Origin: Natronobeatus ordinarius
Lineage (GTDB): Archaea; Halobacteriota; Halobacteria; Halobacteriales; Natrialbaceae
Direction of reading: 5' to 3'
DNA length: 64,000 nt
NCBI RefSeq assembly: GCF_024362485.1
Contig: NZ_CP101456.1
Location: 1,922,001-1,986,000 of the forward strand
Positions 50,433-63,239 of the stretch are shown piece by piece; positions within the stretch are counted from its first letter, which is position 1, and every line of letters begins with the position of its first letter. Both the position numbers and the translations under genes were made by a program. Below the pieces are notes generated by a model, which had not been told where the DNA came from, did not search any database, and saw nothing but the letters and a program-made list of their open reading frames with translations.

Positions 50433-51134
50433 TCACAACCGTGTCGTGCCGTCGGCTCCCTCGAGCCCGTTGCCCGTGATCCGGAACGTGACGGCGTCGC
50501 CGGCGGGCTTCGAGCGGTGTTTCTCGAGCGTCGCTCGCCGGTTGCCGCCGCGAAAGCGTTCGATCCGGACGACGGCCCCGGTCCAGTGCTCCAAGGTGTT
50601 CCCGCCGAGTGGCCGGGTTCGGTCCGAGTCGGGGTCGGCGAACACCTGGTTGGTGACGACGACCGCGAGGTCGTGTTTGCGCGCGAGCGAGAGTAAGTGC
50701 GTAATTTGGCGAGTCACCGCTCGCAAGGCGTCTCCTTCGGCGGCGTCCTCGCCACGCTCGAGTCGGTAAAAGCCGGTCGCGCTGTCGAGAGCGATCAGAT
50801 CCGCGCGGGGGGCGAACTCTTCTGCGTCGCGGACGGCCTCGGCCTGCTCCTCGAAGTCGAGCGCGTCCTCGAGCACGATCCTCGAGGCGACGGACTCGAC
50901 GTCGTCGGCCCGCGCCGTGAGCAGTTGCTCGAACCGGTCGACCGAGACGCCCTCGGTGTCGATGTAGACGGCGGTTCCCCCCTCGGCGGCGGCTTCGATC
51001 GCGCCGGAGAGCGCGAGATTAGTCTTCCCGGACGCCGGCGGGCCGTACAGCTGCGTCACGGTCCCGCGCTCGAACCCGCCACCGAGTAACTCGTCGACCG
51101 GTGGACAGCCGGTCGAAATCGCCTCCCCGTTCAC
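50433..51134 (-). CDS. radB: DNA repair and recombination protein RadB
   Basis: 233 residues, the normal RadB length. Walker A GPPASGKT at 31-38, Walker B LIALDSATG at 113-121, the archaeal RecA signature GGNTLEHWTGAVVRIER and the short C-terminal tail are seen; the N-terminal HhH domain of RadA is absent, as in RadB. It is an accessory RecA-family paralogue in homologous recombination, interacting with RadA and resolvase. First gene of a probable three-gene operon with CitG-like and DUF447 genes. Confidence 0.94.
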   Translation of the reverse strand: MNGEAISTGCPPVDELLGGGFERGTVTQLYGPPASGKTNLALSGAIEAAAEGGTAVYIDTEGVSVDRFEQLLTARADDVESVASRIVLEDALDFEEQAEAVRDAEEFAPRADLIALDSATGFYRLERGEDAAEGDALRAVTRQITHLLSLARKHDLAVVVTNQVFADPDSDRTRPLGGNTLEHWTGAVVRIERFRGGNRRATLEKHRSKPAGDAVTFRITGNGLEGADGTTRL

Positions 51135-51226
51135 GAGTGACGTTCGTGGTAGCCGGGGAAAAAGTCCACGAAACGAAACGAACCGGCGTCGACGCGGCGG
51201 GAGCCGTCGCGACCGTGCTGAACACG

Positions 51227-51234
51227 CTTATATC
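51227..51234 (+). promoter_or_regulatory. TATA box of the RNase H-fold gene
   Basis: CTTATATC ends 23 bp before the GTG at 51257, a textbook distance for a leaderless archaeal transcript. The upstream region is shared with the divergent radB gene. This box is the main reason for choosing the GTG over a start further upstream. Confidence 0.6.
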
Positions 51235-51256
51235 GGCCGCGGGCAAAGCCTCGAGC

Positions 51257-52030
51257 GTGATCGTCGTCGCCACGACGGACTTCGAGTGTTACCACGGCGT
51301 CGTCAACGAACTCCGCGACCGCGGGGTGACGTTCACGACGATCGAACCGGACGAGCAGCTCCCCGAGCGGACGCGCGTCGTCGTCACCGACGAGGCGCAC
51401 GCGGGGACGTTCGGGGACGTGCCGACGATCGTCGCCGACCCCGAGGACGCGAGACGGGCTGTCGACGGGGCGCTGGCTGCCCTCAGTGGCGGCGGTGGCC
51501 GAACGATCGTCGGCGTCGATCCCGGCCGCAAACCGGGGATCGCCGTCCTCTCCGGCGACGTCGTCGTCGCGGCGTTCCAGGTGCCGCTGGCCGACGCCGT
51601 CGACGTCGTCGAACGCGAGGTCGCCGACGCCACGGACCCCGTCGTCCGGATCGGCGACGGCGCACGCCTCCAGGGCGCACAGCTGGTCAACGAACTCGAG
51701 GACGTCCGCGTCGAACTCGTCGACGAGACGGGCACCACGCCCTATCTCGGCACCGGCACGCGCGGGATGGGCGACGTCCTCGCCGCGGTCAACATCGCCC
51801 GCCTCGAGGGCGAGGTCGTCGACGCGCGGACGATCGAACCCACGGCTGGCGAACTGCAAGTGATCAAGGACCGCTCACGGGAGCGCAGCGAGACGAATCG
51901 ATCGATCGACGAGGCGCTCGCCCGCCGAGTTGCGGCCGGAGAGCTGACGATCGACGAGGCGCTCGCCGAGCACCGTGGTCGAGACAGCGAAGAGACGGAC
52001 GACAGGACGAGCGAGCCCGGTAGCCACTGA
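51257..52030 (+). CDS. RuvC/YqgF-type RNase H-fold protein (conserved haloarchaeal)
   Basis: 257 residues from a GTG at 51257 (VIVVATTDFECYHGVVNELR). The N-terminal 80 residues are Rossmann-like. From residue 80 the RNase H-like fold begins: RTIVGVDPGRKPGIAVLSGD has the first acidic residue in the VGVDPG strand, followed by VVVAAFQVPLADAVDVVERE. GIGDGA-like VRIGDGARLQGAQL and TRGMGDVLAAVNIARLEG hold later acidic residues. This suggests a Holliday-junction-type nuclease or its relative. It is divergent from radB with a 122-bp shared promoter region, which fits a recombination role, but catalysis is unproven. Confidence 0.78.
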   Translation: MIVVATTDFECYHGVVNELRDRGVTFTTIEPDEQLPERTRVVVTDEAHAGTFGDVPTIVADPEDARRAVDGALAALSGGGGRTIVGVDPGRKPGIAVLSGDVVVAAFQVPLADAVDVVEREVADATDPVVRIGDGARLQGAQLVNELEDVRVELVDETGTTPYLGTGTRGMGDVLAAVNIARLEGEVVDARTIEPTAGELQVIKDRSRERSETNRSIDEALARRVAAGELTIDEALAEHRGRDSEETDDRTSEPGSH

Positions 52031-52224: not shown

Positions 52225-54135
52225 CTACCGTTCGCTCACGAATCGTGCGGCGCCGACGATTCCGAGCGCCACGAGTGCAACGAGGACTCCGAAGCCAGGG
52301 ATACTGTCTCCGGGCTCGTCGTCTACGACACTGCCATCGTCGTCCTCGGACGGTCCGACTCGGTCGCTCGACCTATCGTCGTCCTGCCCGGTCTTCTCAT
52401 CGTCATGTTCGGTCTTATCGTGGTCGTCGTGTTCGTCCTTGTCGTGGTCGTCGTGTTCGTCCCTGTCGTGGTCGTCTTCACCCTTCTTGTGGTCGTCGGG
52501 GTCGTCACCGACGAGTTCGCCTTCGGCGACGGTCGTCGACTCGGCGGAGGCGAACTGGATGTTCTCGTTCTCCTGAATCGTCAGCTGCACCGTGTCGGCG
52601 CTGCCGTTGTCCTCGGCCACGGCGAACGCACCCTGCTGCTGGTTGAGGTTCACCTGCATGATCTCCTGGCTCTGCTGGACTTCGGCGTTGGACCACTGCT
52701 CGACGTCGTTCAGCTGCTCGTTGCTGCCGTCGTAGTCGAACGAGAGGTGACTGGCCCCTTCGACGGCGTCGCCATCGAGTGTCACCGACGTGGTGTTCGT
52801 CAAGACGAGGCTGTCGAAATTGTGTTCGTCCGTGTGCTTTTTCTCGCCTTTCTTGTGCTCGTCGCCATCTCCAATCTCCGCTTCGAAGATGTTCAGCGCA
52901 TCTGCAGAGGCGATCTGTGCGTTGATGTTCTGCTGGAACGATAGCTGCACGGCCGTCGCCTGGCTGTCGTTGACTGCGATCGCGACGGCTGCGCTCTGGT
53001 TGTTGAAGTTCGCCTGTTCGACGCTCTGGATCTGCGTGACGCTGGCTTCGGCGGTCTGCGTGACGTCCGCTTTGTCATCGTGACCCTTCTTCTCCTCCGG
53101 GTGGAGTTTCTCCTTGCCATCTTTCGTCAGTAGATCGTTGCCGGCGTCGGTACCGGCCATCGCGACGTTCATCCCGGCCGTTTGCATCAGGATGTTAGCC
53201 GCTTCAGCCGTGCCCACCTGTTCGTTCAGGTTGGTCTGGTCGGTCATCTGAATCGCCGTCGCGCTCGAGTTACTTCCGACGGCGATCGCGACTGCACTGT
53301 GCTGCTCGTTGACGTTGAGCTGATCGACTACCTGAACCTGCTCGACGGTGGCATCAGCATCCTGGTCGGCATCGATCCCGACGCCGCCATCGTGCTTTTT
53401 GTGTTTGGCGTGTCTGTCTTTGTCCTCGTCGAGGTCGGCAGCGAACACGTTCGTCGCGTTCGCTGCACCCTCCTGAAGGTTCAGGTTGGACTGCTGGGAG
53501 AGCTGGAACGCAACGGCTTCGCTTCCGTTCTCGGCGAACGCGAGCGCGGTGCTCTGCTGGTTGACGTTCGCCTGCGCGACTTCCTGTCCCTGCTGGACCG
53601 TCGCCTCGGCCACCTGACTAACCGAGATCTCTTCACCGTCTCCGTCGCCGATTCCCCAGCCAGTGAAGCGCTGGTCATCGCCGTTGCCGAAGATGAGAGT
53701 AACGTCACCGACGTTCTCGAACTCGGCGCTGTAGCGGTCGACCTCCGCGTTCACGGCAGTCGCTTCACCCGTCTGGCTGTTGGCGTTCTGCTGGGTCGCG
53801 TCCTGGATCGCTACCGCTTCACCGCCGTCGATCGAAACCGACGCCGCCTGACCCTCCTGGGTCACTTCGACGTTCTCGACGTCCGTGTACTCGACGACGT
53901 CGACGTCGTCACCGGGGTTTGCTTGCGTTTCGATATACTCCTCGAGCGTCTGATCGCCGAGATCGGCGCCGAAGACCAGGTAGAGGCCTTCGTCGTTCTC
54001 GAGGGCGTGGAACTCGTCGTTGTTGTCTCCTTCGTCCGCGAGCGCCGGTCCGGCTGCGGCAACCAGCGAGAAGGCGAGCATCACCGCGACGAGTGTCGTC
54101 ATCAGTTGTGATCGTGAGACCGTCCTGTAATTCAT
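52225..54135 (-). CDS. Secreted, PGF-CTERM-anchored repeat protein with curlin-like Gln/Asn/Ala repeats
   Basis: 636 residues from the ATG at 54135; a longer start at 54198 is possible. A Sec signal (MTTLVAVMLAFSLVAAAGPA, cleavage near ALADEG) precedes five repeats of about 60-66 residues, at about 90-131, 171-234, 256-320, 356-421 and 480-541. Each alternates Q-x-N-x-N-x-Q and A-V-A-I-A type strands, for example VEQANFNNQSAAVAIAV and AVQLSFQQNINAQIAS, resembling curlin repeats. His/Asp/Lys linkers (HAKHKKHDGG; HPEEKKGHDDK; DEHKKGEKKHTDEHN) separate them. A HDDHDKDE-type tail at about 547-582 precedes PGFG (613-616) and a last helix ending RFVSER, a PGF-CTERM signal for archaeosortase processing. 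Expected on the S-layer-side surface. Confidence 0.85.
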   Translation of the reverse strand: MNYRTVSRSQLMTTLVAVMLAFSLVAAAGPALADEGDNNDEFHALENDEGLYLVFGADLGDQTLEEYIETQANPGDDVDVVEYTDVENVEVTQEGQAASVSIDGGEAVAIQDATQQNANSQTGEATAVNAEVDRYSAEFENVGDVTLIFGNGDDQRFTGWGIGDGDGEEISVSQVAEATVQQGQEVAQANVNQQSTALAFAENGSEAVAFQLSQQSNLNLQEGAANATNVFAADLDEDKDRHAKHKKHDGGVGIDADQDADATVEQVQVVDQLNVNEQHSAVAIAVGSNSSATAIQMTDQTNLNEQVGTAEAANILMQTAGMNVAMAGTDAGNDLLTKDGKEKLHPEEKKGHDDKADVTQTAEASVTQIQSVEQANFNNQSAAVAIAVNDSQATAVQLSFQQNINAQIASADALNIFEAEIGDGDEHKKGEKKHTDEHNFDSLVLTNTTSVTLDGDAVEGASHLSFDYDGSNEQLNDVEQWSNAEVQQSQEIMQVNLNQQQGAFAVAEDNGSADTVQLTIQENENIQFASAESTTVAEGELVGDDPDDHKKGEDDHDRDEHDDHDKDEHDDHDKTEHDDEKTGQDDDRSSDRVGPSEDDDGSVVDDEPGDSIPGFGVLVALVALGIVGAARFVSER

Positions 54136-54663
54136 GTTTCGCTTGATGTGTTCCGTGAGGTTCTTTTGTTGCTGAGTTTCTGCGATGCAAACCACCATAT
54201 TTCGAAGACGGTCTTTGTTATCTGTAGGTTGGAAAATCGAATGGAACGACTACCCAGATTCGACGACTAACGTCGAACGCAATGTATCGAACGGCGCGAA
54301 AATCCTTCTGGAGCCCACGGCTCGAGTCCGCTCGAGGCCACTCACTGCAGCCGGTTTCTCCGGAACGCGATCGATGCGTTAGGTGCCCCTATCGTCGTTT
54401 TAGCGGGCGTTTATGTCGGGTGGAAGAACGGAGTAGTACGATCCTGTTGGTTAGAGACGAGGTCCTGTGCCAGAAGCCGTCCTATGGTGGTTAGAGACGA
54501 GGTCCTGTGCCAGAAGCCGTCCTATGGAAATTCACCGACGAGTGGGAGACGCGATGACGATGGTCGGCCTGGTCGAAGAGGAGTTACGGAGAACGTTGCG
54601 CACAGAACGCCATCGGTGCTCGAGTTCGTCGGTCACAGAGATTCGAGGCAAAAGCCCACGACG
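54136..54663. other. Non-coding region with perfect tandem duplication
   Basis: 528 bp. The 5' end near 54136-54240 probably contains the promoter or leader of the repeat-protein gene. The rest has no convincing gene; open frames on the + strand are short and change register over the duplication at 54448-54527. No similarity to a known element is recognised. Confidence 0.5.
54448..54527. repeat. Perfect 40-bp tandem duplication
   Basis: Positions 54448-54487 and 54488-54527 are identical over 40 bp, starting TGGTTAGAGACGAGGTCCTG and ending CCGTCCTATGG. There is no gap between copies. It resembles a recent slippage or recombination duplication in a non-coding stretch. The repeat contains no inverted arms. 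Confidence 0.9.
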
Positions 54664-55362
54664 TTAGTTGTGGGAGGAAGCCGACTGAAGAGCGGACCAC
54701 CGACGAACACTCCACCACGTTGTGGCACCCCCTGCACAGCCGACGAACGCCAGCCAGCCGTCGACGCTCCCGCCGGTCACCACAACTGCCAGGCCACCGA
54801 GGAGTGACGCACCGACGAACGCCAGCGTTGGATTCTGCTTCGTCAGCCTCGTCGCCAGGGAAAGGTAGGCGAGCCCGAACGCGACCGATGCGACGACGTC
54901 GACGACGTAGTGAACGCCGAGCGCGAGACGCGAGACGCCGACCAGACCGACGGCGAGTGCCGCCAGCTGATATCGTCGACGAGCCGTGAACCGCTGGCCC
55001 CAGCGAGCGAGCGCGACCCAGAGAACGGTGGCGGCCATCGTGTGTCCGCTCGGAAAGCCGTCCCCGTCTCGAGGGACGGCCTGCAGCGACGATGGGGGTC
55101 GCGGGGCGCCAAACGCCGCCTTCAGAACGAGTGTGAGCGCGAGGCCACCGAGGACGATGGCCAGAACGAACGCCGTCCTGTTCGACAGCAACTGATCGGA
55201 ACCGTCTCGGACGGACCGCTGTACGTCCACGACTGCGACTACCAGTAACACGCCAACGACGACGAACACGTCACCGAGGAGGGCTATGAGTTCGAAGACC
55301 GGGACGGCCCACTCGGGAAGCATCGTTCGGACCAGTTCGGTAACGCCGACGTCTCGGTTCAT
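54664..55362 (-). CDS. PAP2 phosphatase family membrane protein
   Basis: 232 residues with about six membrane helices. The three acid-phosphatase motifs are complete: KAAFGAPRP at 81-89, PSGH at 104-107 and SRLALGVHYVVD at 144-155. It is probably a lipid phosphatase (phosphatidic acid, diacylglycerol-pyrophosphate or a prenyl pyrophosphate) acting at the outer membrane face. Next to the glycan cluster, recycling of polyprenyl pyrophosphate carriers is possible, but nothing in the sequence proves it. Confidence 0.9.
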   Translation of the reverse strand: MNRDVGVTELVRTMLPEWAVPVFELIALLGDVFVVVGVLLVVAVVDVQRSVRDGSDQLLSNRTAFVLAIVLGGLALTLVLKAAFGAPRPPSSLQAVPRDGDGFPSGHTMAATVLWVALARWGQRFTARRRYQLAALAVGLVGVSRLALGVHYVVDVVASVAFGLAYLSLATRLTKQNPTLAFVGASLLGGLAVVVTGGSVDGWLAFVGCAGGATTWWSVRRWSALQSASSHN

Positions 55363-62238: not shown

Positions 62239-62730
62239 TTAGAAATAATTGCTCACTTTTGGTATAGAGATCTGGTCAAGAGCTGTATCAATCGCCGTTG
62301 TAAGATCGTCGAGTGACTCAAAGAAACGGTTGCTGAGAGCGGCTTGGAGTTGTCTCCAGCACTCCTCGACAGGATTGAGCTCTGGCGAGTACGCCGGTAA
62401 CGTGACGAAGTCGAGGTCGTCACGGGCCGCCAGGTCCGTGACGGCCGACGCCTGGAAATACGACGCTCCATCCAGCACGATGAGCAAATCATCTGCAAAT
62501 TCTTCGCATAATGCAAGAATGAAATGTTTGGCGTGTTCGGCGGTTACGTACTCTTCGAATCGAGCGAAAAAGCGATCACCGTCTTCGGTGATCGCGCCCA
62601 ACAGGCACGTCCAGTCGCGTTGGCCGGATAATTCGACGGCCGGCCGCGTGCCGCGAGGAAACCACGCGGCACGCGGCTCGACTTGCACGGATTTCTTGGT
62701 CTGATCGATACAGACTACTGTGGCGTCCAT
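62239..62730 (-). CDS. IS630 transposase, catalytic (DDE) frame
   Basis: 163 residues counted from the ATG at 62730, but it is probably made as the C-terminal part of a fusion. The catalytic triad is seen: first Asp in VVCIDQTKKS, second Asp in LLIVLDGASYF, third Glu in SPELNPVEECWRQLQ. A -1 slip at the A7G run (62741-62747, minus strand) would join it to the upstream helix-turn-helix frame, reading AAG CGG CGG GAG before the ATG. Confidence 0.88.
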   Translation of the reverse strand: MDATVVCIDQTKKSVQVEPRAAWFPRGTRPAVELSGQRDWTCLLGAITEDGDRFFARFEEYVTAEHAKHFILALCEEFADDLLIVLDGASYFQASAVTDLAARDDLDFVTLPAYSPELNPVEECWRQLQAALSNRFFESLDDLTTAIDTALDQISIPKVSNYF

Positions 62731-63239
62731 CTCCCGCCGCTTTTTTTGAACTCTTCGCGGAAGGTTTCTTGCTCGTCAGCATCAGATTCGGCGGCTGTAC
62801 GGCGTGGTTTTTGATAGCTCAATCCCGCTTCTTTGAGTAACCGCCGGCAGCTCGGGATTGAGTACTCGACATCGTAGGTTTCCTCAAGATATTGCTGGAC
62901 GAGCGCCGGCGTCCACGCCGGCGCGTCGATCCCGACTTCCTTGGGAGGTTCGTGAACGGTTTGTTCGAATTCTTCCTGCTGTGTTTCTGAGAGCTTCCGG
63001 TTTCTTCCGGAGCGGTGAGCATCAGAAACGGCTTGCTCAAACGGTTCGTCCGTATCGAGTCGCATGAGCCAGCTGTAGATCGTTCTTCGACCGGTGTCGT
63101 GCCACTCTGCAAGTTCGGTCTGCGTAACGCCGTTTTTGTACGCGATCGCCGCTAGTAACCGCTGTGTCGGCTTGTTCTCCTCAACCCTGTCGAGAGCGTC
63201 TTGGAGTTCTTCGACGGAGATCTCGTCGAGATGGTCCAT
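62715..63239 (-). CDS. IS630 transposase, DNA-binding frame
   Basis: 174 residues. The N-terminus has a helix-turn-helix (LLAAIAYKNGVTQTELAEWH then RRTIYSWLMRLDTDEPFEQA) and the second winged region (VQQYLEETYDVEYSIPSCRR). It ends in a slippery A7G run after EEFKK, before a stop 35 bases on. It overlaps the catalytic frame by 16 bp. In IS630 elements this arrangement makes full transposase by -1 frameshifting. Confidence 0.88.
   Translation of the reverse strand: MDHLDEISVEELQDALDRVEENKPTQRLLAAIAYKNGVTQTELAEWHDTGRRTIYSWLMRLDTDEPFEQAVSDAHRSGRNRKLSETQQEEFEQTVHEPPKEVGIDAPAWTPALVQQYLEETYDVEYSIPSCRRLLKEAGLSYQKPRRTAAESDADEQETFREEFKKSGGRWTPQ

Follow-up and report, generated by a model that had tools for sequence, protein, structure and literature searches.

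The window analysed here, a stretch of 64,000 nucleotides from the haloarchaeon Natronobeatus ordinarius, carries on its minus strand (52225..54135) the gene for a secreted protein of 636 aa built on five repeats. Homologues occur in most Natrialbaceae genomes, the repeats keeping their residues and their lengths in those that were aligned, and at many of these loci the gene is accompanied by one or more small secreted proteins related to the repeats in sequence. Each repeat probably folds as one layer of a beta-solenoid, and we put at about even the chance that the protein is a layered matrix subunit that forms a fibre.

Biofilms of Haloferax volcanii stain with Congo red and thioflavin T; the protein responsible has not been established, and HVO_1403 was suggested as a candidate by the authors (PMC4180959). 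In open-licence papers we found only dye-staining work on curli-like or amyloid proteins of haloarchaea, and no description of the present family. The near family-wide gene pair of the Natrialbaceae is a concrete candidate, open to deletion and testing.

Results

Architecture of the Five-Repeat Protein

The open reading frame runs on the minus strand, as do all the features of the protein given below, from an ATG at 54135 to a stop at 52225 and is supported by homologues; a further in-frame ATG lies upstream at 54198. The protein begins with a putative Sec-type signal peptide (aa 1-34, ...LVAVMLAFSLVAAAGPALADE; 54034..54135), already recognized from the sequence alone, for which AF2 predicts a helix at residues 9-27 and whose hydrophobic segment aligns in the homologues. 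It is followed by a conserved N-terminal segment (aa 45-72, LYLVFGADLGDQ.LEEY; 53920..54003), a possible cap, in which F55 and G56 are invariant in 47 sequences and the AF2 confidence is low.

All five repeats appear in the AF2 prediction, and repeats 2 to 5 are also matched by a profile of the companions described below. Repeat 1 (aa 82-131; 53743..53892), with predicted strands at 77-93, 97-102 and 106-129, is the shortest layer. Repeat 2 occupies aa 172-236 (53428..53622; companion profile E 4.3e-13), repeat 3 aa 256-321 (53173..53370; E 1.4e-12), repeat 4 aa 358-421 (52873..53064; E 4.6e-14) and repeat 5 aa 476-538 (52522..52710; E 5.4e-14). The sequence-only reading had described five regular repeats of about 60-66 residues; the number stands, as does the size for the last four (62-66 aa), while the first has only about 50. 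The repeats are rich in Gln, Asn and Ala, and their half-repeats read [SG]-x-A-x-A-x-Q. Nine copies of the motif Q-x-N-x-N-x-Q are present, most of them paired at a spacing of 27-28 residues (the first has a degenerate partner); shuffling the region 20,000 times gave 0.03 copies on average and never more than 2.

The description of the linkers as His/Asp/Lys-rich fails for linker 1 (aa 132-171), which is not rich in His or Lys and consists of a conserved F-E-x-V-G-D-V...G-W segment. This segment and two other conserved stretches outside the repeats (aa 45-72 and 440-475) could form caps that block stacking between monomers.

After the last repeat comes an acidic low-complexity spacer with HD repeats (aa 540-609; 52309..52518), which is not conserved (column identity 0.07) and whose HD stretch is specified by a tandem repeat of 24 bp in the DNA (52400-52476). 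The C-terminus (aa 609-636; 52228..52311) is a PGF-CTERM-like anchor containing a TM-like helix in the AF2 model (aa 615-635). It scores just below the cut-offs of TIGR04126 (21.9 bits, cut-off 24.5) and PF18204 (14.8 bits, cut-off 18.8), but the anchor scores better in homologues of the same family (best E 3.3e-6), and the genome encodes an archaeosortase (TIGR04125, 327 bits, above cut-off).

Upstream of the gene, the intergenic region contains a perfect 40-bp tandem duplication (2.0 copies; 54448-54527), possibly a recent event in the control region of the gene. A bacterial-type promoter scan found nothing, though such a scan says little about an archaeon.

Predicted Fold of the Repeats

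AlphaFold2 (AF2), run with a 47-row alignment, predicted the same three-strand layer for every repeat: about 23 residues in the first, long strand (17 in repeat 1), 6 in the short middle one and 24-27 in the second long one. The pLDDT was about 80-90 in repeats 2-5 and low in the linkers, the tail and the N-terminus; for the whole protein pLDDT was 55 and pTM 0.47. A Foldseek search of the PDB with a limit of E 10 yielded seven matches in all, at E-values of 2 to 10, and none of them is significant. Most are parallel beta-helices, and the seven include the two bacterial functional amyloids of solved structure, CsgA (8c50, E 4.2) and FapC (9u4u, E 5.5). A second aligner (VIA) scored a chain of the SufB-SufC-SufD complex at Z 7.8, CsgA at 4.9 and FapC at 2.6. 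Since these E-values are so high and no Z exceeds 7.8, no fold family can be assigned; stacked beta-solenoid shapes are the nearest known structures to the model. The beta-helix alignments span all five repeats, from which we infer that the layers may stack in register, and we regard a beta-solenoid layer fold as probable.

The prediction thus gave long-strand repeats and not an unrelated globular fold, and the homologues keep the repeats with the same periodicity. Both results agree with the sequence-only reading of a beta-solenoid or cross-beta repeat protein, secreted and, in this copy, probably surface-anchored.

Distribution and Conservation

No family covers the repeats in searches of Pfam, NCBIfam, PHROGs and PDB sequences. 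Homologues were found in 100 of 125 Natrialbaceae genomes and, in a class-wide sample, in 84 of 391 genomes, 79 of them Natrialbaceae (the genome of the window included) and five from three other families; the family is also found in Haladaptataceae. Plasmid-borne copies, annotated as hypothetical or PGF-CTERM proteins, occur in Haladaptatus, Halomicrococcus, Haloterrigena, Natronorubrum and Natrononativus. In Natronorubrum bangense the repeat locus is present both on the chromosome and on plasmid unnamed1, with identical ORF coordinates over 13.5 kb (L039/L040). The homologue from Haladaptatus pallidirubidus (L104:6851-8392) has a twin-arginine-like signal (KRRGYLKG), in contrast to the Sec-type signal of the others.

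Of the invariant columns in an alignment of 47 homologues, nearly all belong to the Q/N/A ladder. The repeats hold their length, repeat 3 having 66 aa in 47/47 sequences, repeat 4 60-64 and repeat 5 57-63, while the linkers vary, linker 2 from 1 to 62 aa and linker 3 from 22 to 67 aa. Exact residues and repeat lengths are thus kept at an overall identity of about 50%. Fixed repeats joined by variable linkers are as expected of ordered layers connected by loops.

Most homologues have no anchor, their sequence stopping after the last repeat, so that the surface tether proposed for the window protein, plausible here from its motif and the archaeosortase, is an exception within the family. On the maximum-likelihood tree, built from 63 proteins, no fewer than three changes are needed to explain the anchored state; the copy in the window falls with the main anchored group.

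Small Secreted Companions

In relatives, one to four genes for a small secreted protein lie a short distance upstream of the large gene and point away from it. When the non-redundant loci were searched with a profile in all six frames, a companion lay no more than 3 kb away in 44 of the 62 (38/47 unanchored and 6/15 anchored). Most companions have about 110-220 aa, some being longer. The clearest are four tandem copies in Haladaptatus salinisoli (L080), essentially one repeat plus a signal peptide each; those of the Natrialbaceae are more degenerate. Run against the window protein, a profile built from nine companion rows gives a separate match to each of repeats 2 to 5 (E 4.6e-14 to 1.4e-12). 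Modelled alone from the nine-row alignment, the companion was predicted to be disordered (pLDDT 52), which fits template-driven assembly and equally fits poor prediction.

The gap between companion and large gene is near-constant (median about 630 bp), and the divergent spacer is possibly a shared regulatory region. Across L034-L075 the divergent intergenic regions are long and fairly constant, mostly about 500-700 bp. No genome of the 391-genome sample has a companion match without the large protein; because the large protein is itself hit by this profile, only this absence of companion-only genomes is informative. The pair of genes recurs in Haladaptatus and Halomicrococcus beside quite different flanking genes, so that shared synteny alone does not account for the linkage.

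Some companions (the longer ones of L037, L042, L044, L046 and L054, together with L070:158-1222, L072:1-857 and L074:52-1116) carry a large insert between the two Q/N strands or are members of a related secreted family, which is marked by repeats of an 'IDTITFYNDDG' domain and has a signal peptide of the same type.

The Locus in N. ordinarius

No companion adjoins the large gene in the window, and the companions were therefore invisible to the sequence-only reading. In many Natrialbaceae the order is CDC48-type AAA ATPase, nickel insertion protein, companion(s), large gene, DUF460-like protein, RadB and CBS protein. The window retains the last part of this order next to the large gene: a convergent unnamed conserved protein with weak resemblance to DUF460 (51101..52030, plus strand), syntenic with other Natrialbaceae loci, and the flanking housekeeping gene RadB (50433..51134, minus strand), also syntenic. 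The first part lies about 27 kb away, where an intact companion (G000:C1:2003191-2003565) is followed by the nickel insertion and CDC48-type AAA ATPase genes. About 20 kb from the anchored copy, in the polysaccharide region described next, there is a remnant of an unanchored large gene, reduced to its last repeat (G000:C1:1995616-1995894; L081:9616-9894). This small hit (L003) resembled a companion at first sight and was rejected as one, since its roughly 55 aa belong to the last repeat of an unanchored relative, with 66% identity to L025.

Between the two halves of the locus lies a surface-polysaccharide region with a PAP2 phosphatase, a nucleotidyltransferase, an epimerase and glycosyltransferases. 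The PAP2-family phosphatase gene (54664..55362, minus strand) precedes the large gene here, and an equally placed and oriented PAP2 gene accompanies the anchored copies L033, L009 and L085, the last also having the nucleotidyltransferase and the epimerase. It is likely that the ancestral unanchored gene gave way to the anchored form, brought in by an island or by recombination with one. The polysaccharide region also contains an IS630 transposase in two overlapping frames (62239-62730 and 62715-63239; 62239-63239 in all), a split that points to programmed frameshifting or to decay.

Discussion

A Proposed Model for Assembly

The conserved ladder and the predicted layers allow us to propose how such a protein might work. 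Exported through Sec, the protein would fold each repeat into one flat layer of a long, a short and a long strand, with Gln, Asn and Ala side chains pointing inward as ladders. The five layers would pile along one axis, the charged linkers looping out, and the open edges would take up further monomers as well as the single-repeat-like companions, giving a cross-beta fibre in the extracellular matrix. In N. ordinarius archaeosortase would link the C-terminus to a membrane lipid, so that the fibre or its base would be tethered, while in most relatives, which are unanchored, it would be released. Whether molecules assemble into such a fibre we judge to be an evenly balanced question; no Csg-type secretion gene was found in the genome, which counts against it. 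Tentatively, the family may represent a two-component archaeal functional amyloid, unrelated in sequence to curli and Fap, in which five-layer and one-layer-like subunits co-assemble into matrix fibres and the switch between anchored and unanchored forms sets cell-bound against free fibres; this fuller picture is possible, if somewhat doubtful.

The strongest rival to a fibre is a beta-solenoid that is capped and stays monomeric, standing out from the S-layer (or set free) as a rigid stalk or adhesin, with the companions as small soluble partners or decoys. The best structural matches of the model, beta-helix folds of the SufB/SufD type (Z 7.8), would suit it, and single surface proteins commonly carry an acidic spacer followed by PGF-CTERM. 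Caps could be formed by the conserved segments at the two ends and between repeats; those at aa 45-72 and 132-171 favour the monomer. However, companions that resemble one repeat of the same ladder, in one to four copies per locus, are best explained as co-assembling subunits, and the prevalence of unanchored forms, odd for a stalk, likewise favours assembly; we consider the capped monomer rather unlikely. A low-complexity, largely disordered Q/N-rich protein forming prion-like or gel-like condensates with no fixed layer fold would account for the composition, for the low overall pLDDT and for the predicted disorder of the lone companion. Prion-like segments, though, drift in length and position, whereas here residues and lengths are kept at about 50% identity and the repeats are predicted at pLDDT 80-90, which makes this explanation improbable.

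Two further explanations take up features stressed in the sequence-only reading. One is a surface fibre that binds metal through its His/Asp/Lys linkers and tail. The tail of the window protein has 10% His and 48% Asp/Glu, but the His-rich tail is unique to the window copy (0-5% His in the other 14 anchored homologues) and is the product of the 24-bp tandem repeat, so metal binding is unsupported; many homologues, moreover, lack the His-containing linkers, whose length is variable. We regard a metal-binding fibre as very improbable. The other is that the protein is a true curlin (CsgA/CsgB) acquired from bacteria and then diverged. Its paired Q/N-bounded strands recall curlin, and the half-repeats resemble the N/S-x-Psi-x-Psi-x-Q half motif (PMC10192328). 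Nonetheless, PF07012 (Curlin_rpt) matched none of the 47 homologues at E up to 10 and nothing in the genome, E. coli serving as positive control; the tandem 22-23 aa double motif N-x-Psi-x-Psi-x-Q is absent from all 63 proteins, a relaxed form giving three matches in total; and a repeat of about 64 aa stands against one of 23 aa. CsgE, CsgF and CsgG, not visible in the earlier reading, were not found in the whole genome either, a weak argument because an archaeon has no outer membrane. Membership in the curlin family was rejected on these grounds; the proposed likeness does not extend to kinship, and descent from a bacterial curlin seems extremely improbable.

Should the layered subunit indeed form fibres, layered Q/N-ladder amyloids would have arisen, or be used, in Archaea, with sizes and partners unlike those of curli and Fap, and would work in near-saturated salt, which would be useful in materials work and in studying the convergence of such folds. 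If the two-component reading is true, Halobacteria would have a layered-repeat system known from its genes and not from dye staining.

Comparison with Known Systems

The overall layout resembles that of the PGF-CTERM haloarchaeal surface proteins processed by ArtA (PMC7157517), which share with the window protein the signal peptide, the acidic spacer, the C-terminal PGF motif with helix and basic end (here just under the profile cut-off), and the archaeosortase; the repeat domain, in contrast, matches no named family, and most homologues are unanchored. The sheath protein SH of Methanospirillum (PMC10593813, PMC6242892) is likewise an extracellular archaeal assembly described as amyloid-like, although it forms the sheath cylinder of a methanogen, is compared here by description, and the window protein has no PDB sequence match.

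Curli (CsgA/CsgB; 8c50, PMC10192328) share a Q/N ladder in beta-solenoid repeats and a major and a minor repeat protein. They differ in their 23-aa strand-arc-strand unit, against a predicted three-strand layer of about 64 aa here, and the present family has neither PF07012, the double motif nor Csg export genes, with a Foldseek match of only E 4.2.

For Fap of Pseudomonas, a pattern search for the FapBC motif GN-Psi-G-Psi-N...NqQN found none in the 63 proteins, and FapC membership by motif was rejected. FapC has three repeats of about 38 aa, as opposed to five of about 64 aa in the window protein, and its Greek-key layer (9u4u) aligns to the model at only Foldseek E 5.5 and VIA Z 2.6. The partner in Fap has three repeats while the partner here is small, clearest at about 110-150 aa, and our family belongs to an archaeal envelope without an outer membrane and with an optional PGF-CTERM anchor. 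On the other hand, FapC has repeats fixed in length and variable linkers (PMC12392863), a feature also found in our 47-homologue alignment. FapC/FapB and the present proteins have in common a few imperfect repeats, a conserved Asn/Gln framework with small hydrophobics, one cross-beta layer per repeat (here predicted) and two related repeat proteins per locus (PMC12392863). The window family may therefore work like the curli and Fap amyloids, while membership in either family is not supported. Its best analogue appears to be FapC, closer than CsgA, by architecture and not by descent.
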